This document shows positions 7,018 through 49,154 of a stretch of 64,000 nucleotides of DNA, piece after piece. The position numbers and the translations under genes were made by a program. The stretch is from the NCBI RefSeq assembly GCF_023566055.1, contig NZ_JALIQP010000003.1, forward strand, positions 62,001 through 126,000, in the 5' to 3' direction. Source of the stretch: Halosolutus amylolyticus (lineage in GTDB: Archaea > Halobacteriota > Halobacteria > Halobacteriales > Natrialbaceae). The stretch's first letter is position 1. Each line of letters begins with the position of its first letter. The notes under the pieces are model-generated. The model saw only the letters and a list, made by a program, of their open reading frames with translations. It had not been told where the DNA came from and did not search any database.

Positions 7018-7521
7018 ATGACGCTCTCGGAGGAGGCCAGAGATCGGCTGGCCGACGTGGTCGAACTCCAGCCGACGAAGAACTCGGAGCTACAGGAACG
7101 GTGGGGAATGGACAGCGGCAGCGAGGTCCACCACTACCTCGAGAACGAACTGGGCGACTACTACTTCCGGGACGACAACAGCCTGATCCGCGCGACGAGC
7201 GAGGCCGCGGACCTCGTCGACGTCGAACCGGGAATCGAGAGCGACCCCGAGGACGACGGGGTCCCCTCCCGGATCCGCGTCCCCGAACTCCACGCACGGA
7301 TCGTCGCGGTACTGGCCGGCCCCGAGGAGGAGTCGGAAAGCGTCGTCTCGGTCCTGCACAAACTCCGGGACGAGTACGACGTCGATTCCGACGCCGAGGA
7401 CGTCCGATCGGGCCTGCAGAGCCTCCGCCGCAAGGGCGTCGTCGAGGTCGAGTACCGGACCGTCCCCACGTTCCGGCTGGCGGTCGAGCGCGAGGCGCTC
7501 GAGGTCGACGTCTCCGAGTGA
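7018..7521 (+). CDS. DUF5797 family protein (winged-helix-like)
   Basis: A 167-residue acidic protein opening MTLSEEARDRLADVVELQPT, which I recognise as the halobacterial DUF5797 family. The first 65 residues look like a winged helix (KNSELQERWGMDSGSEVHHY as the recognition region), and a second helical block spans about 85-150 with SGLQSLRRKGVVEVEYRTVP, again winged-helix in style. No experimental function is known to me; a DNA-associated role is inference. Confidence 0.75.
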   Translation: MTLSEEARDRLADVVELQPTKNSELQERWGMDSGSEVHHYLENELGDYYFRDDNSLIRATSEAADLVDVEPGIESDPEDDGVPSRIRVPELHARIVAVLAGPEEESESVVSVLHKLRDEYDVDSDAEDVRSGLQSLRRKGVVEVEYRTVPTFRLAVEREALEVDVSE

Positions 7522-7565: not shown

Positions 7566-8624
7566 CTACTGGCCCGGCCGCCGTCGCCGCCGTCGATCCT
7601 CGAGCAACTGCCGACATCGCGACCCCGGTCCGCCCTCGATCGGCCACCCTCGCGTTCGCCACGCGGGCGGTTCCGGTTCGAACTCGGGACAGGAGCCGGC
7701 ACACGCCGCGGCGGTCTGACAGCCCCCCTGCGCACCGCAGTAGGGCACTAGCTGGTTCCCGGGCCGGGAGCGCAACTCGAAGTGCCGGCAGTCGGGACGC
7801 ATCGTCTCGACGAACGATCGCCATCCCCGCTCGTAGGCCCGTTCGGCGATCGCGAGGCGTTTCGCGGCCTTCGCGTCCCGATCGACGTACTCGAAGCGGG
7901 CGGCGGAGCCGTCCCGCCGGCCGCCCTCGGGCCGCTCTTCGATCCGCGTCCCCGGATCGTCGACGGCGAGCGATCGGGGATACCAGGCGACCTCGGCCGA
8001 CAGCGTCTCCGGATCGAGCACGAGGACGCCGGCCTCGATCGGGAGGTCCTCGAACAGGATCGGCTCGACGCGCTCGTCCGTCCGCCGGGTCGCGACCCAG
8101 ACCTCGTCGGCCAGCCCCATCGCGACGTCGTACTCGAGCTGGCTCCCGAGGACGCGGGCCGCGCTCCTGTCGAGGTCGGGCTTGTTCTCGATCGCGACGA
8201 TCCGCTCGATCCAGTCGGGATAGGGCCACTTCCGGCGGATCTGGATGCGGTTCCCGTCCCGACGGGTCTCGACGATTCCGCGGTCGTCGGCGCGGTGGAT
8301 CGCCTCGCGAACGTATCGCCACGGGTAGCCCGGATGCGGAAGCGCGTCGCGGTAGTAGGCCCACTCGTCGGGTGCGTTCCGGACGACGTGGAGGAGGTCG
8401 CTATCCAGCCGATCGGGGCCGAACCGGGCACGTTGCTCGAGTCCGACGGGATCACATTCGAGAACGATCGTGTCCCACCGCCGCCGTTTCGTCCCGAGTT
8501 GCCGGGCGACGACGATCGGCCCTGTGTCGCGTCCCTCCCCGATCGGCGGCCACGCTCGTTCGACCCACCGGCAGGTGCGCAGTTCGAACGCGAACTCGCT
8601 GTCGGGAGGGGTGGGATCGGTCAC
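7566..8624 (-). CDS. DUF5787 family protein; possible PD-(D/E)XK nuclease with a cysteine cluster
   Basis: A 352-residue protein of a haloarchaeal family of unknown function. Visible parts: WDTIVLEC near residues 50-57, a winged-helix-like middle (about 100-150), VAIENKPDLD near 166-175, then LGSQLEYDVAMGLADEVWVA near 182-201. The D...ExK...QxxxY order is that of PD-(D/E)XK nucleases of the RecB type. The C-terminus carries five cysteines in about 35 residues (DCRHFE, YCGAQGGC, ACAGSC near 283-317), reminiscent of the Fe-S cluster cysteines of Cas4/AddB. Nuclease activity is inference. A low-complexity RRRRRRPGQ tail ends the protein. Confidence 0.7.
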   Translation of the reverse strand: MTDPTPPDSEFAFELRTCRWVERAWPPIGEGRDTGPIVVARQLGTKRRRWDTIVLECDPVGLEQRARFGPDRLDSDLLHVVRNAPDEWAYYRDALPHPGYPWRYVREAIHRADDRGIVETRRDGNRIQIRRKWPYPDWIERIVAIENKPDLDRSAARVLGSQLEYDVAMGLADEVWVATRRTDERVEPILFEDLPIEAGVLVLDPETLSAEVAWYPRSLAVDDPGTRIEERPEGGRRDGSAARFEYVDRDAKAAKRLAIAERAYERGWRSFVETMRPDCRHFELRSRPGNQLVPYCGAQGGCQTAAACAGSCPEFEPEPPAWRTRGWPIEGGPGSRCRQLLEDRRRRRRPGQ

Positions 8625-9647: not shown

Positions 9648-10085
9648 TCAGACCTCGTTTTCCTCCTCGAGTTCGTCGAGGAACTCGTGGGCGTCCTCCA
9701 GGATTTCCCGTGGTCCGTCCTGCGTGACGGTGTTTACTGCCTGTTCGTAGTCGCGCCACTGGAGGTCGCGATGTTCGTTGGACAGTTCCGCGCTGGCCTC
9801 GAAGGACTTCGCGACGAAGAGGTGAACGGTTTTGTGGATCGTTTTCCCGTTCGCCTCGAAGACGTAGTCGTAGTCCTTGCGAAAGCCGTCGAGTAGCCGG
9901 AACTGTTCGATACCTGCCTCTTCCTTTACTTCGCGGATCGCCGTCTGTTGTAGCTCTTCATCTCCTTCGACACCGCCCTTGGGAAACTCCCAGTCACCTG
10001 GGCGGCTCTTGAGTAGAAGATACTCGCGCCGGCCCCGCGTATCGCGGAAGAGGATTGCGCCTGCGCTCGTAGCTTCGACTGCCAT
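9648..10085 (-). CDS. Nudix hydrolase, Ap4A hydrolase type
   Basis: A 145-residue Nudix enzyme. The Nudix box runs from GGVEGDEE through REVKEEAGIE (about residues 37-60), matching GX5EX7REUXEEXGU. The preceding EFPKG and the overall size resemble bis(5'-nucleosyl)-tetraphosphatases, which cut dinucleoside polyphosphates. The C-terminus is very acidic. A TATA-like CTCTTAACG lies about 28 bases before the start, and the gene diverges from the S10-like gene. Confidence 0.88.
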   Translation of the reverse strand: MAVEATSAGAILFRDTRGRREYLLLKSRPGDWEFPKGGVEGDEELQQTAIREVKEEAGIEQFRLLDGFRKDYDYVFEANGKTIHKTVHLFVAKSFEASAELSNEHRDLQWRDYEQAVNTVTQDGPREILEDAHEFLDELEEENEV

Positions 10086-10196: not shown

Positions 10197-10532
10197 ATGA
10201 CCTTCGTCACCCGTCTCACGCTCCAGAGCGGCGATAGAGCCGCCCTCGATGCGATCGTCGACGACATCAAATCGACGGCCGAGCGCAAGGGGGCCGCGCT
10301 GAAAGGGCCCCACTCGCATCCGCCGGAAAAACTCTCGGTTCCCCAGCACGCTCGGCTCCACGGCGACGACGATCGGCGGTTCTCCTCGTGGGACTACACG
10401 GTCTTCACGCGGGAACTCGAGATCCACGGCCACGACAACCTCGCGCGAAACGTCGCCGAACAGAATTTCCCTGACTCGGTCCACATCGAGGCCGAGGTCG
10501 AACAGATCCACGGCGTCGGCCGCGGGAACTGA
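10197..10532 (+). CDS. uS10/mL48 family ribosomal protein paralogue
   Basis: A 111-residue protein resembling ribosomal protein S10: TRLTLQSGDRAALDAIVDDI at residues 5-24, the loop KGPHSHPPEKLSVPQHARL (about 41-59) where S10 has its proline-rich extended loop, and a C-terminal strand YTVFTRELEIHGHD. It is not the canonical rpsJ, which in archaea is coupled to tuf. Haloarchaeal genomes carry this second copy; whether it enters ribosomes is not established as far as I know. TATA-like GGTTTTTACC precedes it by about 35 bases. Confidence 0.82.
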   Translation: MTFVTRLTLQSGDRAALDAIVDDIKSTAERKGAALKGPHSHPPEKLSVPQHARLHGDDDRRFSSWDYTVFTRELEIHGHDNLARNVAEQNFPDSVHIEAEVEQIHGVGRGN

Positions 10533-33985: not shown

Positions 33986-34094
33986 AGCTGGCGTTGGTCG
34001 CTGGGGATGTTAACAGTTGTTGGTAATGTGATTTACTTTATTCAGTCTGACCGACCTGGACACTGTGGAATCCTTGCCGGTCATTGTTCGTTTG

Positions 34095-35081
34095 TCAGTG
34101 CTCCGACTTCGGCTTTTCTATCTGTTTCTTGATATTAGTTCCATCTGGAATGACTGGCTTCACTCGAAGCTCTCCGAAGCCGTACTTCGAGTGGTTCCCG
34201 ACGCGGGTGAGGCCGGACATTGCAGTCTCTACCGGGCGGTCGCCGTCGTAGCCGACGACCACGCCGTGATCGACGGTCTCCAACTCGTAGACATCTCCGC
34301 CCTCGATGACCTTCTCCAGCCGCTTCCGGAGTTGCGCTTCGTCGTCTACGCTCCACCACCAGGGGACGTCCACGTTGTTCGCCTTCGGGTACTCCGACCG
34401 GAGGACGAACGGTGTCACGAGTTCGAGGATGAACTCCTCGCCGTCTTCGAGACGCGAGTAGTCCAGCGACTCCAAGTCAACGACCTGCGTGTCTATCAGC
34501 GTGGTCGTCCCGTAGCCGTAGTTCCGTTTACCGCCGAACTGGTGGCCGTCAAGCGGGTGGTCGGCGTTCACCGACCACCTATTCCGTGGCGGCGAGGCCG
34601 CCACGCTGTCCTCACCGAGAGGCAGAACGTCCGGGTTATCGGCGTGCAAGTAGGCGTTCACGTACCAGCGCGTGGTCTGCTGTTGTTTCCGAGCGTCGTC
34701 GGGCCGGCCCATGATCGTCTCGTGAGCCAGCGCGGGCATTCCGCTCTGGAACCGGATGTCGTGGGCGTTCAGCCCGTCGCGGGGTCGGGTATCGAGTAGC
34801 CACGGATTGTCGGGGCACCGGAAGAGGAACAGGTCGTCGTAGCTCTCCACGTCGGGAAGCGACGACCCCATGTACGGGCGAATTCCGCTCTGTGAGTGCT
34901 CTTCGGGGAACGTTCCAAACTGACCGGGGACGAACATCCCGTGACTGGCGTTGATATGCCGGTGGACGTCATGCTCCAGCTGCATCCCGAGCGCGTGGTA
35001 GATCGCGTTCCCCGAGACGTAGTACGGGTGGCCGAGGTAGTCCATGTCGAGTTCCCAATGAATCTGCTGGATGCGGGTCAC
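34095..35081 (-). CDS. RAMP-fold protein of an HRAMP-type derived CRISPR system (Cas5/Cas6-like)
   Basis: A 328-residue protein, last in a three-gene operon. It has two glycine-rich loops of the RAMP type: GGKRNYGYG near 183-191 and GNHSKYGFG near 295-303, the second just before a final strand (ELRVKPV) as in Cas6/Cas5 proteins. The N-terminal strand (QIHWELDMDYLGHPYYVSGN) and helix fit a ferredoxin-like fold. The GTG start overlaps the previous stop by 4 bases (GTGA). Assignment as the diverged Cas5 of HRAMP is inference from order and motifs; a Cas6-like role is the alternative. Base composition is lower in GC than flanking genes. Confidence 0.7.
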   Translation of the reverse strand: MTRIQQIHWELDMDYLGHPYYVSGNAIYHALGMQLEHDVHRHINASHGMFVPGQFGTFPEEHSQSGIRPYMGSSLPDVESYDDLFLFRCPDNPWLLDTRPRDGLNAHDIRFQSGMPALAHETIMGRPDDARKQQQTTRWYVNAYLHADNPDVLPLGEDSVAASPPRNRWSVNADHPLDGHQFGGKRNYGYGTTTLIDTQVVDLESLDYSRLEDGEEFILELVTPFVLRSEYPKANNVDVPWWWSVDDEAQLRKRLEKVIEGGDVYELETVDHGVVVGYDGDRPVETAMSGLTRVGNHSKYGFGELRVKPVIPDGTNIKKQIEKPKSEH

Positions 35082-35860
35082 GCGTTCTCCCTTCGGGTTT
35101 CGAGATCCTCGATGTACTGGAGCGCGGTGCTCCAACTCCAGATTCGCCGGAGGTTCGCGTCGAGTACCATGTCGTGCTTGTCGTGGTTGACATCGAGCGG
35201 GTGTTCGGTGAGGCGCTTCCACGCCGACGCCCACGACCGCCACGGGCGGCTTCCAAGGCGCGCCCACGGGTTCCAGTCCCCGCTCTCGTCGATTCGAAGC
35301 GCGAAGCGGTCGCCCGCGTAGACCGTCCGGTGAGGCACGACCTCCTCGGTGTCGTCCACGACCAGGAGGAGATCGGCGAACTCGTGACCGACGCGGTAGT
35401 TGTCCAAGAGCGCCGCCACGAGCAGCGTGTGGTACTTCAGGCTGGTGTACGGGTAGTAGATGCTCTCGTTGAAGCCGCTCGCAACGTCCGACGTGAGCCA
35501 CGCCCGATGCATCGCCTCGGGGTCGGAGCCCGTCAGCAGGTCGGTGATGGCCTCAGAGAGACGCGGGCGTGAGAGCTCCTCGGAGTCGTAGTGAGAGGTG
35601 CCCGTCAGCAGCGAGAGCCGGTAGTGCGTCTCGTGGTTATCCACTGTCTGTTCGGGCTTCCCGTTGGGCCGTGAGAGCGCCGACGCGTCGCCGTCCGCGC
35701 CGTGCGGGACGGTCCGGTTCACCGGGACGCCGTGAAAGGTGTCCGGGGCGTAGTCATGCGTCTCGCCATTGAGCTTGTGGGCGTCGTGGCGGTAGGCCGC
35801 GACCATCACGTCCTGGCCGCCGTCGCTCTGGAAGTCGCTGAGGGTGACGTTCTCGCCCAT
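35078..35860 (-). CDS. Uncharacterised middle protein of the HRAMP-type operon
   Basis: A 260-residue protein I cannot assign to a known fold. It has no transmembrane segment, no zinc knuckle and no nuclease motif that I can see. The second half is helical and Trp-rich (about 195-250, with RPWRSWASAWKRL and RRIWSWSTALQYIEDL), and a LLLVVDDTEEVV beta segment lies near 164-175. It starts directly after the Cas7-like stop codon and overlaps the next gene by 4 bases, so all three are translated from one message. Position and size fit the conserved uncharacterised component of HRAMP systems. Confidence 0.65.
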   Translation of the reverse strand: MGENVTLSDFQSDGGQDVMVAAYRHDAHKLNGETHDYAPDTFHGVPVNRTVPHGADGDASALSRPNGKPEQTVDNHETHYRLSLLTGTSHYDSEELSRPRLSEAITDLLTGSDPEAMHRAWLTSDVASGFNESIYYPYTSLKYHTLLVAALLDNYRVGHEFADLLLVVDDTEEVVPHRTVYAGDRFALRIDESGDWNPWARLGSRPWRSWASAWKRLTEHPLDVNHDKHDMVLDANLRRIWSWSTALQYIEDLETRRENA

Positions 35861-36724
35861 CTACGGCCCCTCCGCGATGCGCTCTTCCAGCGCCTCCACG
35901 AACACCGGACGGTACTCCTTGGCCCACTGTTCGTCTTTCTCGCCCATCTTGTTCGTGTTGCCCTTCCCGCGGTCGAAGACGCGCTTCAGTTCGCGCTCTT
36001 CGTACAGCGGATTGATGAAGTGGCAATCGACGATCCCCGCGCCGAAGTTGCGAGCACCACCGAGCTGGTGCATGAAGTCCGTCTGGTGCCCATCCAGGAA
36101 GTCGATCCCCTCCGCGAGCAGACCGATGAACTCGGGCTTCGTCTCCCGGAGTGAGAGATGCCAGCAGCCGTCCAGATTCGCCACGGCGTCGATTTCTGCG
36201 TTCCGAAGCGGTTCGCGGTTATCTTCACGATTCCGAGAAACGACGTTCCGGTTGAGCCGGCGGTAGTGGCCTTCGGCCTGTCCGCGCGTGTAGTCCACGC
36301 TGGAGCGGACGGGGTTAAATTTGATCGGGCGACGCATCACCTTTCCCGGCTGGTTGCCGAAGCCACCGAAGAGGTCGAAGACCACACATCCGTCATTCTC
36401 TTTTGGGTCATCGACGCACGCACCCTTCTCGTGGTAGCCGTCATCGAGATCACGCTCGTAGACGCCGTCTTTCATGAAGTTCGCGTTGGACTCGCCGGGG
36501 TGGCAGGCGGTGCCGTCGTACTCGTGGACAACGCGCTCCATCCCATGGCGAAGCCACCCAGAAAGAGGAAACGCCGGAATGATCCCGCCGATCTGGTTTT
36601 GTGGATCGGTGTCCTCGTAGTTACCGTTCGAGGCGTGGTGTCTGTCAGTCATGATGCTGTCACCGACTACCAGTAAGTCGGTCTGGATTCGCACGAATAC
36701 GTCGCAATCGATGTCTTCAATCAT
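35861..36724 (-). CDS. Cas7-like RAMP protein of an HRAMP-type derived CRISPR system
   Basis: A 287-residue protein, first in the operon. RAMP hallmarks: IPAFPLSGWLRHGMERV near 49-65 (compare the IPGSSLKGxxR helix of Csm3/Cmr4), LFGGFG near 118-123, RSSVDYTRGQAEGHYRR near 140-156 (the RxxxDRxTGxA-like segment), and the glycine-rich loop LGGARNFGAG near 221-230. These follow in the order seen in Cas7 backbone proteins. Asp38 and Asp40 fall where Csm3 carries its RNA-cleaving Asp, but conservation cannot be judged. A TATA box (TTTAAA, 36753-36758) about 30 bases before the ATG supports this start. Confidence 0.75.
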   Translation of the reverse strand: MIEDIDCDVFVRIQTDLLVVGDSIMTDRHHASNGNYEDTDPQNQIGGIIPAFPLSGWLRHGMERVVHEYDGTACHPGESNANFMKDGVYERDLDDGYHEKGACVDDPKENDGCVVFDLFGGFGNQPGKVMRRPIKFNPVRSSVDYTRGQAEGHYRRLNRNVVSRNREDNREPLRNAEIDAVANLDGCWHLSLRETKPEFIGLLAEGIDFLDGHQTDFMHQLGGARNFGAGIVDCHFINPLYEERELKRVFDRGKGNTNKMGEKDEQWAKEYRPVFVEALEERIAEGP

Positions 36725-37157
36725 GGTGGCCCAGTTTCGTGACCTGATCACGTTTAAAGGTCAGCGAGTATCGAGTGCGTTCTTCAGGGCGGAGCGAAAC
36801 GGCGCGGAGGTGCTGGCAGAAAAGTTCCGTAGTAGATGGGGGGTAGAGACCTCATGTCGAGTAATCAAGAATCGGTTTCTGCCACAGTCGGGTTCGAGTC
36901 AGATTGAACACCGGCTGTTCCTGTTCGGCTACGCGGTGCTGCTGTACAACATGTGGACGGTGGCGAACGCGATTGGTGCCGACCGGGACGACGATCACGA
37001 CCTCAGCGAGGACGGGAAATACTGGAAGACGGTCGTGTTCCTGAGTAACATGATTGATGACCCGGCGTCACTCGAAATTGGGGAAGTTCCCGAGGGAGAG
37101 TTATCAGAATTCATCGAGATGATTCAGAGCGATTTTTACTTGAAGTTCAGCGTCTGA
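36723..37157 (+). pseudogene. IS4-type transposase, C-terminal remnant
   Basis: A 144-residue remnant of a DDE transposase. The IS4 YREK signature is recognisable as FRSRWGVETSCRVIK (Phe for Tyr, then R-x3-E-x6-K), holding the third catalytic residue, followed by HRLFLFGYAVLLYNMW, the helix typical of halobacterial IS4-like elements. The first two catalytic Asp residues and about two thirds of the protein are missing, and no terminal inverted repeats are visible. It begins at a CATG shared with the divergent Cas7-like start. It records an insertion and deletion next to the RAMP operon. Confidence 0.78.
36753..36758 (-). promoter_or_regulatory. TATA box of the RAMP operon
   Basis: CCTTTAAACG on the minus strand, centred about 31 bases before the Cas7-like ATG, which predicts a nearly leaderless transcript. 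Between it and the ATG is an imperfect palindrome, CGTGATCAGGTCACG (36736-36750). No other promoter is visible between the three genes. Confidence 0.55.
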
Positions 37158-37304
37158 AAGAGTTCGTTTCCACTCACCCCTCGAGCTGAATAACATCACC
37201 TACATTGCCAACTACTGTTAAAGGGTCGGCAGACGAGCGGCCCCGACACGGGACGGTCCGGCGTACCGAAATGTTCACCACGGGTGGCGCGTAATCGAGG
37301 GCCG

Positions 37305-37724
37305 ATGGCGGCCACAGACCGGATCACATCGCTTTCGGACGTTCCCGACTCCTCCACGTTTTGCTTTCGCGTCCGGAACGGGAACGACGACGAACGGGAG
37401 GCGATCCTCGTCAGGGATGGCACCGACGACGTCGCGTGCTGGCTCAACTACTGCCAGCACTTCACACACATCAATCTGGACAAGGGATCGGGCGCACCGA
37501 TGCGCGACGGCGAGATCGTCTGTGCCAACCACGGGGCGTACTTCGACGCCGACTCCGGACAGTGTACCTTCGGCCCGTGTGAAGGCGCGTATCTCACGGC
37601 GATCGACGTCGCCGTCGACGACGGCGTCGTCTACCTGACCGACGAGGCTTACGAGTTCGTCGGACCTGGCCCGATCGAAACCGACGACGCCGATCGCACC
37701 TCGACGTCGAACGTCGAATTTTGA
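37305..37724 (+). CDS. Rieske [2Fe-2S] protein
   Basis: A 139-residue soluble Rieske domain protein. The cluster motifs are CQHF near 46-49 (C-x-H) and CANHGAYFD near 72-80 (C-x2-H), with the usual spacing for a ferredoxin-like Rieske rather than a bc1 subunit. No membrane anchor is present. It probably passes electrons to an oxygenase or reductase, but none is adjacent. A GTG seven codons upstream is an alternative start. Confidence 0.88.
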   Translation: MAATDRITSLSDVPDSSTFCFRVRNGNDDEREAILVRDGTDDVACWLNYCQHFTHINLDKGSGAPMRDGEIVCANHGAYFDADSGQCTFGPCEGAYLTAIDVAVDDGVVYLTDEAYEFVGPGPIETDDADRTSTSNVEF

Positions 37725-37727
37725 GGC

Positions 37728-38090
37728 CTACCGAACGGCGGCCGGGGAGACGAGGTCGCGTTCCTGATCGTACTCGAGCAGGCCGGCGTCGACCAGTCGC
37801 GGGAGGTGGTCGTGATACAGCGAGATGTAGACGTCGGCGACCTCCTCGGCGGAGAGTTCCCGTACCTTCCGGCCGGTTTCCCGGACGGCGACCTCCTCGG
37901 CGGCGTCGGGGAGGGTGAGCTCCTCGCCGTAGGTGGCCATCACCTCGAGCAGCAGGCGACGACGACGGCTGGCGAGGAGCGAGAAGGCGTCGTCGACTGC
38001 GTCTGGCGACGTCTCCTGCGTATCGAGCCAGTCGAGGACCGAGAGCACGAGATCGACACAGTCGGACTCGGGATGGGACGAGGCAGTCAT
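37728..38090 (-). CDS. DUF7344-type winged-helix regulator
   Basis: A 120-residue single-domain protein: DAFSLLASRRRRLLLEVMATY (about 35-55) and YHDHLPRLVDAGLLEYDQE (about 91-109) form the winged helix typical of this halobacterial family, including the HLPxLxxxGL wing. It may bind DNA near its own promoter. The stop lies only 3 bases from the convergent Rieske stop. The longer open frame upstream is rejected because it runs into the neighbouring gene. Confidence 0.8.
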   Translation of the reverse strand: MTASSHPESDCVDLVLSVLDWLDTQETSPDAVDDAFSLLASRRRRLLLEVMATYGEELTLPDAAEEVAVRETGRKVRELSAEEVADVYISLYHDHLPRLVDAGLLEYDQERDLVSPAAVR

Positions 38091-45775: not shown

Positions 45776-46096
45776 TATAAGTAGACTAACTCGCGTCGGC
45801 CCGCTGGCGGCCGATTCCGGCGCGAACGCAGTGCGGTAGGAACGGACTACGGGCGGCGGAACGGAGCCCGTTCCCGCCGCGCGTCACAGCTCGTGACGAC
45901 GATAGCAAACCGTCGCCAGCCGCCGTTTCGTTCGGCTCTGTCGCCGTGTAGGCTCGCGATACGATCGCGGACACGGGTCGAAACGGGTGGGGAAGCGTCG
46001 CGAAAGCGACGAGCCAGTTCGAAGGCGCCGACGATTCACGATGCGGTCGCTCACGAGGGAAGCGAAAACGGCAGAGACACAGGTGGACGAACCGAG
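45776..46096. other. Intergenic stretch without a recognised gene
   Basis: About 320 bases between the divergent-facing promoter of the ATP-grasp gene and the stop of the coiled-coil gene. It holds the TATA region of the ATP-grasp gene (TTATAATAATATCC on the minus strand, near 45768-45781). I see no conserved reading frame, repeat of family A or B, or RNA gene. Confidence 0.5.
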
Positions 46097-46978
46097 CTAG
46101 AGCAGTCCCGTCTTCTGGAGTTTCATCAGGTCCTCGGTGTCGAGGGTTTCGCCTTCCTTGAACTTCTGATAGATCTCCTCGGCCTCTTCTTTGGCCTCCT
46201 CTTTCTTCTTGTCGCGCTCGGACTTGCGCTCCTCTTCTTCCTTCTTGTCCAGTTCGCGCAGGCGCTTCTGGACGCGCACGAAGTCCTCGTGGTGCTGGTC
46301 GGCGGCCTCCTGGGCCTCCACGAACTTCTCGTGCATCTCGTCGGCCTCGTCACGGATGTCGTCGGCCTCGCGGTAGGCCTCGATCATCTGGTTGTGATGT
46401 TCCTGGGCCTTGTCCGCGAGTTCCGTGACTTTCTGGTGGTGCTGGGAGGCTTCCGATCGGACTTCCTCGGCTTCCTCGACGAGTTCTTCCAGGTCCTCGT
46501 TCTGATCGAGCTTCTGCTTGCGCTCCTCGTACTCCTCGCGCTTGGACTCGATCTTCTCGATGAGCTCTTTCTCCTCTTCACTGGAGAGGACCTCGGTCTG
46601 CTGTTTGAACTCGAGCTGCTCGATTTCCTCCTCGAGTTCTTCCAGGTCCTTGCCCTCGTTGAGCTCCATGTCCGATTTGAGCTCTTCGACGCGGTCGAAC
46701 AGCTCGTTGGCCTCGGCGTTGAGCTCGTTGCGCTTTTCCTTGTGTTCCTGGACGTCCTCGTTGAGCTCGTCGCGTTTCTCGCGGTGCTCCTGGGCTTCGT
46801 CGACCTTTTCGCGAGTCTTCGCGTTGAGCTCGTCGCGTTTGGACGCCCGCTCGGACGCCATCTGGTTCAGTTCGTTTCGCCGGTCTCGGAGTTGACCGGC
46901 CATCTTGATGAGCTGTCCTTTCGATTTGTTTTCGAGGTCGTCTTCTGTCAGTTCGATGTTTTTCGATTCGTCTACCAT
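46097..46978 (-). CDS. Long coiled-coil protein
   Basis: A 293-residue protein almost entirely of heptad-pattern coiled coil from about residue 15 to 275 (LIKMAGQLRDRRNELNQMAS, EELEEEIEQLEFKQQTEVLS and similar). It matches an archaeal family of highly charged coiled-coil proteins (COG1340-like) that has sometimes been mislabelled as phosphoserine phosphatase; no phosphatase motif is present here. A structural or scaffold role is inferred. It has unusually high Lys and Glu for this genome, in keeping with the coiled-coil content. Confidence 0.85.
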   Translation of the reverse strand: MVDESKNIELTEDDLENKSKGQLIKMAGQLRDRRNELNQMASERASKRDELNAKTREKVDEAQEHREKRDELNEDVQEHKEKRNELNAEANELFDRVEELKSDMELNEGKDLEELEEEIEQLEFKQQTEVLSSEEEKELIEKIESKREEYEERKQKLDQNEDLEELVEEAEEVRSEASQHHQKVTELADKAQEHHNQMIEAYREADDIRDEADEMHEKFVEAQEAADQHHEDFVRVQKRLRELDKKEEEERKSERDKKKEEAKEEAEEIYQKFKEGETLDTEDLMKLQKTGLL

Positions 46979-47249
46979 GTGTTAGTCAAACCTCTGTGCC
47001 ATACCCGCACCGGGGCAGTGGCCGCCCGTCGCCGTCGAGAACCCGACCCGTCGGTCGAGCGGATTCCGTCGGGAGACGTGTGGCCGTGTAAAGCGACCGC
47101 TTACGATCTGCGAAACCTCGGTGAATAAGATTTCCTGTCATCGATCGTCGAGCGATACGCGCCCCGGTGGCGTTCTGGTACTGCCAACTACTGTCGCCTG
47201 TAATTTAAATGTACCGGTCACGAAACCCGTGAAAACCGTTAGCAGGGGT
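46979..47249. other. Intergenic stretch without a recognised gene
   Basis: Space between the start of the coiled-coil gene and the hairpin after the GH2 gene. An AT-rich TAATTTAAATG near 47200-47210 could be a promoter, and CCAACTACTGT near 47188 also occurs at about 37208. No reading frame convinces me. Confidence 0.4.
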
Positions 47250-47288
47250 CCCGTTCTCCCGTGTTGGACTGTACCAAGGCAGAACGGG
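47250..47288 (-). terminator. Nested hairpin after the GH2-like gene
   Basis: CCCGTTCT (47250-47257) pairs with AGAACGGG (47281-47288); inside it TTGG (47264-47267) pairs with CCAA (47274-47277) around ACTGTA. It begins 3 bases beyond the stop codon of the upstream minus-strand gene, so a terminator or 3' stability element is likely. On the plus strand a CTTATAAAC TATA-like box follows at once. Confidence 0.45.
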
Positions 47289-47291
47289 TGC

Positions 47292-49154
47292 TTATAAACT
47301 GTATCGGTTACGGACCGTTCGATCGGCCGTCGACACCTCGAGGTCGATCCGATCGGCGTCGGCCGGAATCCTCGCCGTTCCCGCACTCGCGGTTTCGAGC
47401 GGGCCGACGCTGACGGACGTCTCGCCGGTCTCGGTCCCGGCGCGCCAGCCGACGGTGGGTTCGAGGTCGTCGGTCGTGTCGTTACAGAGGGTGATGCCGA
47501 CGCTGCCGGGTTCCGGCGGCCCGTCGAGGACGGCCTGGACGGGTTCGAACGACAGCGCGATCGCCTCGTAGGCCGCTTTCGGCTCGCCGTCCTGGGCCAG
47601 GACGCCCATCCCGCCACCCGGCGTCGGGTCGCGAAGCGTCGCCGCGGTGAGGACGCCACAGCCCCGGCGGCGCAGTGCCTCGGTCACGGTCTTCAGCGTC
47701 CGGGTCTGGTAGCGCTGGGAGTCCTCGACGTCGTTCGGCCGCCGGGCGGGAGCGGCCCGATCGAGCCCCGGCACCGTCTCGGGGTCGACGTCCGCGGTCA
47801 GCGAACCGGCCCCGAAACCGGTGACGATCGATCCGAACGACGGGTACCGATCGAGGAGCCAGTCCACGTCCGCGGGCGCGAGGTACTGCCAGCCCGGCGC
47901 GAGGTGGGCGGCGTCGGGATCGGTCCCCGGCGCGCCCGTGACGGGGACGACCGGCCGATCGTCCGGGAAGTCGTCGGCGATCGTTCTCGCCGCGTCGTGG
48001 TCGACCGCCGTCTGCCACACCCGGTACCGGAGTCGAAGCTTCGCGAGGAACCCCGTCCCGAGGGGGTCGGCGAACGGGTCCGTCGGCCGGTCCTGGACGC
48101 CGTACATCGCGAGACTCGGGTGGTGGCCGTACTCCCCCGCGAGCGTCGTCGCGAGCGTCGTCCCGCGGTCGACGTCGAGGTCGGGGCCGATCGCCGGGAG
48201 GTCCTGCCAGACGAGGAGTCCGGCCTCGTCGGCGGCCCGGTAGAACTCCCGCGGCGGAACGTGTGCGCGGGGGCGAACGATCGTCGCGTTCGCCTCGACC
48301 GCCCGCTCGACGTCGGTCTCCGGATCGCCGCCGGGGAGTCGCGTGAAGCCGCGGGCGGGGACCCGGGTCCCGTTGACGACCAGGCCGTCGTCGTCGCGCT
48401 CAACGTGACAGAACCCGACCGTCTCCTCGACGGCGTCCCCGCCGAGTTTCGCGCGCACGGTGTACCGTCGCTGGGGGCCGTGTCCGCGCGGCCACCACAG
48501 CGACGGGTCGCGAACCTCGATCGTCTTCGAGACGGTCACGCGCTCGCCGGCGGCCGCCGTGACCGGCGTGCGCTCCATCGAGGCGCCGCCGCGGAACCCC
48601 TCGGGGCGGACCGAGAACGTGACGGCGTCGTCGAGCGCCGCACCGGCGTCTATCTCGAGGTCGACCTCGATCGCGGCCCCGTCACCGTCCAGCCGCGGCG
48701 TCGCGTCGAGTCGTCGGCAGAACGTCCGGGGTCGGGATTCGACGGTCACGTCCCACCAGATCCCGGGCATCGCCGTCTCGGCCGGAACCTCGTCGGTGCC
48801 GTAGATCCCGTCGAACGACGACGGCGGTTCGCAGACGACGAGCAGTTCGTTCTCGGCGTCCGGCTCGAACTCGAACCGCGCCGGGACGAAGTGCGGTTCG
48901 TGTTCGCCCAGTTCGGTCCCGTTCATCCAGACCCGCGTCCGACCGTACGTCCCGCGAAGTTCCAGGAGCGCCCGTTCGATATCTCGCTCGCGCGGATCCG
49001 GGACGGTCGCCCGGTACGCGATCGTTCCGTCGTCTCGATCGGCGGCGAACGCGCCGGACCGGCCGGGAACGGTGACCGGCTGCCACTCGTCAACGGTGGG
49101 CGACCCGTCGGCTCCGATCGATTCGACGACCCCGCCCGTCCACCCGTCAGTCAT
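47292..49154 (-). CDS. Glycoside hydrolase family 2-like protein
   Basis: A 620-residue protein with the GH2/beta-mannosidase architecture: jelly-roll sugar-binding domain (about 30-150, ELRGTYGRTRVWMNGTELGEH), immunoglobulin-like domain (about 150-255) and a TIM barrel (about 260-520) with VNGTRVPARGFTRLPG and AGLLVWQDLPAIG. At the acid/base position, where active enzymes have (G/S)xxNE, it reads HPSLAMYGVQDRP, so Gln-Asp replaces Asn-Glu. Activity may be altered or lost. A TATA-like TTTTTACCC lies 25 bases before the ATG at 49154. No signal peptide: cytoplasmic. Confidence 0.75.
   Translation of the reverse strand: MTDGWTGGVVESIGADGSPTVDEWQPVTVPGRSGAFAADRDDGTIAYRATVPDPRERDIERALLELRGTYGRTRVWMNGTELGEHEPHFVPARFEFEPDAENELLVVCEPPSSFDGIYGTDEVPAETAMPGIWWDVTVESRPRTFCRRLDATPRLDGDGAAIEVDLEIDAGAALDDAVTFSVRPEGFRGGASMERTPVTAAAGERVTVSKTIEVRDPSLWWPRGHGPQRRYTVRAKLGGDAVEETVGFCHVERDDDGLVVNGTRVPARGFTRLPGGDPETDVERAVEANATIVRPRAHVPPREFYRAADEAGLLVWQDLPAIGPDLDVDRGTTLATTLAGEYGHHPSLAMYGVQDRPTDPFADPLGTGFLAKLRLRYRVWQTAVDHDAARTIADDFPDDRPVVPVTGAPGTDPDAAHLAPGWQYLAPADVDWLLDRYPSFGSIVTGFGAGSLTADVDPETVPGLDRAAPARRPNDVEDSQRYQTRTLKTVTEALRRRGCGVLTAATLRDPTPGGGMGVLAQDGEPKAAYEAIALSFEPVQAVLDGPPEPGSVGITLCNDTTDDLEPTVGWRAGTETGETSVSVGPLETASAGTARIPADADRIDLEVSTADRTVRNRYSL

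Follow-up and report, generated by a model that had tools for sequence, protein, structure and literature searches.

In Cas4 nucleases, the ligands of the metal cluster are one N-terminal and three C-terminal cysteines, and motif IV of the RecB series has the form QxxxY. Proline directly after a cysteine is common in Fe-S proteins. A role as structure- or damage-directed endonuclease was proposed for MmcB and has been shown for NucS. In the parts of the respective sources available to us, Cas4 proteins are characterized by four conserved cysteines and an Fe-S module (PMC5704561), MmcB is described as an endonuclease of the PD-(D/E)XK type with a link to the repair of crosslinks (PMC9578287), and the PD-(D/E)XK core is defined with a motif order exemplified by E9, D33, E46-x-K48 and D61 of Hjc, a core into which insertions of whole domains do occur (PMC1913061).

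The DNA analyzed here is a 64-kb stretch of the Halosolutus amylolyticus genome (hereafter the window). Its list of open reading frames includes an intact frame of 352 amino acids with a GTG start (7566..8624, minus strand), which the Pfam search assigned to DUF5787 (PF19100; E 2.1e-122, 408.6 bits at a curated cut-off of 25) and which represents type A of two paralogous types. NCBIfam and PADLOC gave no matches for the protein, sequence searches of solved structures yielded no relative, and sequence-profile comparison and the Pfam search did not link DUF5787 to any known nuclease family. A full-text literature search for DUF5787 and PF19100, with most subscription papers outside its scope, retrieved no paper, and broader searches, judged from titles and the beginnings of abstracts, retrieved none describing the family. 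The term 'DUF' is also absent from the available part of a 2020 review on replication and repair in Haloferax volcanii. The most plausible reading of DUF5787 is that of a new PD-(D/E)XK nuclease family with a housekeeping role.

The predicted nuclease core and its inserted winged helix

AlphaFold models were obtained for the window protein from 133 aligned family members (pLDDT 90.0, pTM 0.90) and for paralogue B from its own alignment of 52 sequences (pLDDT 87.8, pTM 0.85). Both models have a core of the topology alpha-beta-beta-[winged helix]-beta-alpha-beta. In the A model, this core is composed of helix 1 (residues 10-24; 8553..8597, minus strand, as for all features of this gene), which contains E14 and C18, the segment of strands 1 and 2 (residues 37-57, with strands 37-44 and 49-57; 8454..8516), which contains R41, Q42, R48 and, in strand 2, the motif II residue D51, strand 3 (139-147) with E146-x-K148 as motif III at its end (residues 139-148; 8181..8210), helix 2 (153-169; 8118..8168) with Q162 and D166 at the place of motif IV, and strand 4 (174-180; 8085..8105) with T179. 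The same elements are present in B. The order of E, D, ExK and an acid or Gln in helix 2 is the same as that given for Hjc in the available part of PMC1913061. Between strands 2 and 3, residues 71-136 (8217..8414) form a winged helix-turn-helix, for which the structure comparison with VIA listed MarR (3bpv) with Z 8.6 over 63 residues at an rmsd of 2.3. The position of this winged helix between the strand carrying the Asp and the strand carrying the ExK motif is confirmed in the models.

Conservation was counted in an alignment of 196 family members, 112 of type A and 84 of type B, which are unique sequences and not independent events; A_L085 (frame problem) and the truncated A_L086 and B_L156 were left out. 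E10, E14, E22, R41, Q42, R48, D51, E146, P149, Q162, D166, T179, E261, G267 and R269 are, among others, invariant in all 196 sequences, and the catalytic residues are likewise invariant in the 133-row family alignment. K148 is present in 195 sequences. The single exception is a K148N replacement (VAIENNPDLG) in L278, the B copy of genome G017. Only 35 of the 352 positions are conserved to at least 98%, and by our arithmetic the chance of four random positions all falling into this set is approximately 8e-5. The conservation of the motifs thus exceeds chance. For the motif I acid in helix 1, E10, E14 and E22 are all candidates. The window protein contains the motifs as WDTIVLEC (D51), AIENKPD (E146 and K148) and LGSQLEYD (Q162), from which the preliminary description had derived the order D, ExK and QxxxY of RecB-type nucleases. 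This order holds for D51, ExK and Q162, but not for the complete QxxxY motif: no more than 42 of the 112 A sequences have the tyrosine at position 165, in B it does not rank among the leading residues there, and the conserved pair in helix 2 is Q162/D166.

Foldseek found no match with E below 0.1 among solved structures for either model, and its best rows were mostly winged-helix proteins or unrelated. With VIA, the A model matched 3dnx (Z 10.9 over 139 of 146 residues), PaqCI (9.2) and the XisH-type protein 2okf (8.7), and the B model matched 3dnx (11.4), PaqCI (8.2 and 8.0), VC1899 (7.4), Can2 (7.3), Card1 (7.1), NucS (7.0) and EndoMS (7.0). The top eight rows for B are all PD-(D/E)XK-type proteins, and by our count this type makes up 15 of the 50 rows obtained with B and 6 of the 50 obtained with A; the remaining rows are mostly winged-helix proteins that align to residues 71-136 of A. 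Since Z values of 7-8 can be background according to the tool's own note, only 3dnx and PaqCI, and for A also 2okf, exceed background, and all of these matches compare residue ranges and not superposed catalytic residues. Among viral structures, the weak matches included a DNA repair protein resembling MmcB and proteins annotated as restriction endonucleases. Taken together, the convergence of two models on one superfamily with intact motifs is strong evidence for the predicted fold. The nuclease fold and the winged helix in the middle of the protein, both anticipated in the preliminary description, were thereby borne out, and the prediction gave the fold expected for PD-(D/E)XK proteins and not a different one.

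The C-terminal cysteine module

Downstream of the core, a conserved helix (residues 249-266, AERAYxxGWR; 7827..7880), with E261, G267 and R269 in or close to it, precedes a module with the spacing C279-X16-C296-X11-C308-X3-C312 (7689..7790), which is modeled as a beta hairpin (strands 282-287 and 291-296) and a short helix. The cysteine cluster of five residues from which a Cas4-like centre had been proposed is present in the window protein (C279, C296, C302, C308 and C312), and four of its members are near-invariant in the family (C279 in 196, C296 and C308 in 195 and C312 in 194 of 196 sequences), so that the family alignment supported the conservation of these four as well as of Glu-x-Lys. 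The fifth, C302, is variable, with a count of 45/112 in A and 0/84 in B. A_L083 lacks C296 and C308 through a deletion, C312 is missing in two B sequences of one genus that both retain C18, and the cysteine end of B_L154 is irregular and was scored as complete in the alignment. C18 in the first helix is a further conserved cysteine that had escaped the preliminary description. It is found in 189 of 196 sequences, with seven losses to Ser or Ala distributed over six genera, and all seven sequences without C18 retain the four C-terminal cysteines. C312 is directly followed by proline in 70 of the 112 A sequences and in 56 of the 84 sequences of type B. Judged from the sequence pattern, the four cysteines could equally hold zinc or an Fe-S cluster.

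A nuclease of the Cas4/AddB/Dna2 type, in which C18 and three C-terminal cysteines would hold a 4Fe-4S cluster that clamps the core, with a winged helix as addition, would account for the near-invariance of the C-terminal cysteines, for the frequent occurrence of C18 before motif II and of proline after C312, and for 4ic1 (SSO0001), which we take to be a Cas4, in the Foldseek list of B, although only with E 1.0 and a probability of 0.06. Against it stand the seven sequences that dispense with C18 and keep the C-terminal cysteines, and the lack of a conserved QxxxY. In addition, Pfam detected no match to Cas4 (PF01930) in the window protein or in family members, the Cas4 profile had no match in the window's own genome, and no Cas4 chain was among the VIA matches listed for either model. 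In hhalign comparisons with alignments of 30 haloarchaeal Cas4 and 30 NucS proteins and with five control families, DUF5787 reached probabilities of 0.3% and 0.1% against Cas4 and of 0.1% and 0.5% against NucS, which is no better than against unrelated neighbours. The control family DUF5797 scored above both (8.8% and 6.3%), probably due to DUF5797 being itself winged-helix-like. On profile and motif evidence we rejected membership of DUF5787 in Cas4/RecB, although a relation at the level of the fold may exist. The special relation to Cas4 suggested in the preliminary description was not supported, and we regard an Fe-S nuclease of this type as highly improbable.

The cysteine module also resembles DUF7140 (PF23601), the C-terminal domain of a different haloarchaeal protein that is annotated without function and for which our literature search found no paper naming it. 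The C-terminal pattern CxxFxx...PYC... and the cysteine spacing and sequence are similar. Weak DUF7140 matches were found in 18 of 133 DUF5787 members (best E 0.0013), and the window protein scored 14.2 bits, below the cut-off of 27. In hhalign, DUF7140 reached 92% against the A module and 11% against the B module, and a methionyl-tRNA synthetase control reached 73% against the A module. Because this zinc-knuckle control scored so high and the B module so low, the resemblance may reflect convergent cysteine spacing. DUF7140 itself was found in 57 of 59 genomes of the class (L305 and others). As a separate observation, many frames in class genomes align with the Cas4 profile solely over its C-terminal part, where the cysteines lie (approximately positions 100-158, E 1e-3 to 1e-7), and these partial matches possibly represent another Cas4-like family of haloarchaea.

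Distribution, paralogues and genomic neighbourhood

Of the 292 class genomes in the sample, 289 contain DUF5787, among them that of Haloferax volcanii, which served as control genome. Nearly all positive genomes contain at least two matches (exceptions G162, G184 and G205), and some third matches represent one gene split in two. The three genomes without the family, of about 1.9-2.3 Mb each, lack both paralogues. A search with the B sequence matched 144 of 145 genomes. In the window's own genome, B lies on contig 2 (1079187-1080155; L002:1453-2472, minus strand), shares 37% identity with A, agrees with it in catalytic residues and cysteines and lies in a conserved neighbourhood distinct from that of A. 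In a tree of the 196 sequences, A and B are reciprocally monophyletic, with mean identities of 64% among A sequences, 57% among B sequences and 32% for comparisons of A with B. As A and B form two clean groups, the duplication is older than the radiation of the sampled members.

When 392 genomes of the phylum were searched with the family profile, 89 matched, 80 within the class and nine with weak matches outside (E 1.6e-4 to 0.01), and we found no convincing family member outside the class in this set. Seven of the nine were searched again, and their matches are confined to a stretch of the profile that starts at position 230 and ends between 301 and 322. We discarded the matches outside the class as noise from the cysteine pattern; visual inspection of two of them showed both to be zinc-knuckle methionyl-tRNA synthetases. 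Among 72,556 plasmid records, a single one carries the family, an 828-kb replicon of Natronorubrum bangense, and no member was found in the phage records and confirmed viral contigs searched. The chromosome and the 828-kb plasmid record of N. bangense carry DUF5787 copies with identical scores and start (L048 and L049), a pair that could stem from either a duplication or an assembly effect.

The neighbourhood was compared for 56 A loci, the window included, and for 20 chosen B loci; for B, a count gives the number of further loci that contain a relative of the gene in question. Upstream of A on the same strand, a NUDIX hydrolase gene (9648..10085, minus strand; PF00293, with all NCBIfam scores below cut-off) recurs in 42 of 56 loci. 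The gap to A is at most 151 bp in 25 of these 42, with two negative values arising from over-long start choices, and the two genes are likely co-transcribed where they are close. A DUF4013 gene is located upstream of A in 13 loci and lies between the NUDIX gene and A in the window. Downstream, a DUF5797 gene (7018..7521, plus strand; PF19110) is convergent with A in 46 of 56 loci; at the profile level, DUF5797 faintly resembles DUF5787 in a winged-helix-like manner. An S10-like gene is found upstream of A in 37 of 56 loci. The ribosomal S10-domain protein of the window (10197-10532, plus strand) scores 51.4 bits against the NCBI uS10 cut-off of 96.25 and is perhaps an S10 paralogue rather than a ribosomal protein. 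In 11 of 20 loci, B is close to a cluster of genes for aIF2-gamma, a PIN-domain protein and RpoE; in 12 of 20, genes for a metallo-beta-lactamase-fold protein and an AAA ATPase lie nearby. These neighbourhoods read as housekeeping and not as defence, and they favour neither DNA nor RNA as substrate. Elsewhere in the window, the G+C content falls to 0.60-0.63 at 34001-38000 and the AT skew to -0.285 at 46001-48000. Searches of the 64-kb window for tRNAs and Rfam families found none.

Possible function and comparison with known systems

Considered as a whole, DUF5787 is quite probably an active PD-(D/E)XK nuclease that incorporates a winged helix and has a metal centre of structural function. 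D51 and E146, probably together with E14, would hold Mg2+, and K148 would activate the water molecule that cuts the phosphodiester bond, while the winged helix would grip duplex nucleic acid beside the cut site. The four cysteines would bind one metal centre, zinc or 4Fe-4S, and thereby stiffen or clamp the C-terminal part. The weakest step in this interpretation is the biological role, for which we tentatively propose housekeeping genome maintenance by a structure- or damage-directed endonuclease rather than defence, a proposal that may well need revision. A housekeeping role is suggested because DUF5787 is a chromosomal core gene with two ancient paralogues that hardly ever occurs in the searched sets of plasmids, phages and viral contigs, and maintenance of DNA is suggested partly because MmcB, the type to which we assign the best fold match 3dnx, is linked to crosslink repair and NucS shares the fold.

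The main rival to this proposal keeps the fold and the chemistry and replaces the substrate by RNA (tRNA, rRNA or mRNA), with a role in RNA processing or quality control. The genes for aIF2-gamma, PIN-domain protein, RpoE and the beta-lactamase-fold protein near B and the S10-like gene upstream of A would fit such a role, and Can2 and Card1, which are among the fold relatives, cut RNA as well. However, neighbourhood alone is weak evidence, duplex DNA is the usual ligand of winged helices, and the best fold matches are presumably DNA enzymes, so that we consider an RNA substrate unlikely, if still worth keeping in mind. The winged helix of the model and the K148N replacement in one B member could also be accommodated by a DNA-binding regulator or scaffold that retained the nuclease fold but does not cut. 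The near-complete conservation of D51, E146, K148 and Q162 across two ancient paralogues would be hard to explain without catalysis, making a non-cutting protein very improbable. If, in contrast, A and B were subunits of one heteromeric nuclease with one active site each, the presence of at least two matches in nearly all family genomes, the joint absence of both in the three negative genomes and the reciprocal monophyly of A and B would be expected, but A and B reside in different, separately conserved neighbourhoods, and we regard a heteromer as rather unlikely. Quite improbable is a haloarchaea-specific A/B pair that combines the winged helix in the core with a redox- or metal-sensing Fe-S module into a joint core enzyme for repair or quality control, possibly switched off when the metal is lost.

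Returning to the reading as a housekeeping nuclease, two nuclease-like paralogues with intact active sites are present in nearly every sampled genome of the class and carry no label other than DUF. The near-universal presence of both versions indicates a probably important task, and if the proteins are active, they would be core enzymes that are absent from accounts of haloarchaeal genome maintenance. With a winged helix between motifs II and III and a four-cysteine tail, the proteins would also represent a separate architecture within the PD-(D/E)XK fold. H. volcanii, which carries DUF5787, offers a tractable host for testing.

Among described systems, 3dnx (SPO1766), which we take to be an MmcB-type protein and whose PDB title states only 'unknown function', is the top fold match of both paralogues, over 139 residues in each case (rmsd 3.5 for A and 5.7 for B). 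With 146 residues it is too short to contain the winged helix insert and the C-terminal cysteine module, and the Pfam search gave no sequence match linking DUF5787 to 3dnx or MmcB. NucS/EndoMS (PF01939) shares the PD-(D/E)XK core, with Z 7.0 for B against both 2vld and 5gke (NucS residues 126-233 and 130-240), and likewise occurs in the majority of the haloarchaeal genomes tested (35 of 39), but DUF5787 has no PF01939 match and differs from NucS by the very low hhalign probabilities given above. The Type IIS restriction enzyme PaqCI is similar in fold (VIA Z 9.2 for A and 8.2 for B), whereas DUF5787 is a core chromosomal family without a PADLOC match. Cas4 (PF01930) also combines a nuclease core with a cysteine module, and four conserved cysteines are named as its hallmark in the available part of PMC5704561. 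In contrast to Cas4, DUF5787 shows no sequence similarity to it, lacks QxxxY, has all four cysteines at the C-terminus with C18 being dispensable, and carries an inserted winged helix, and none of the named genes around A is a cas gene. By analogy, DUF5787 may resemble Cas4 in being a nuclease stiffened by a metal centre, but it is not a Cas4.
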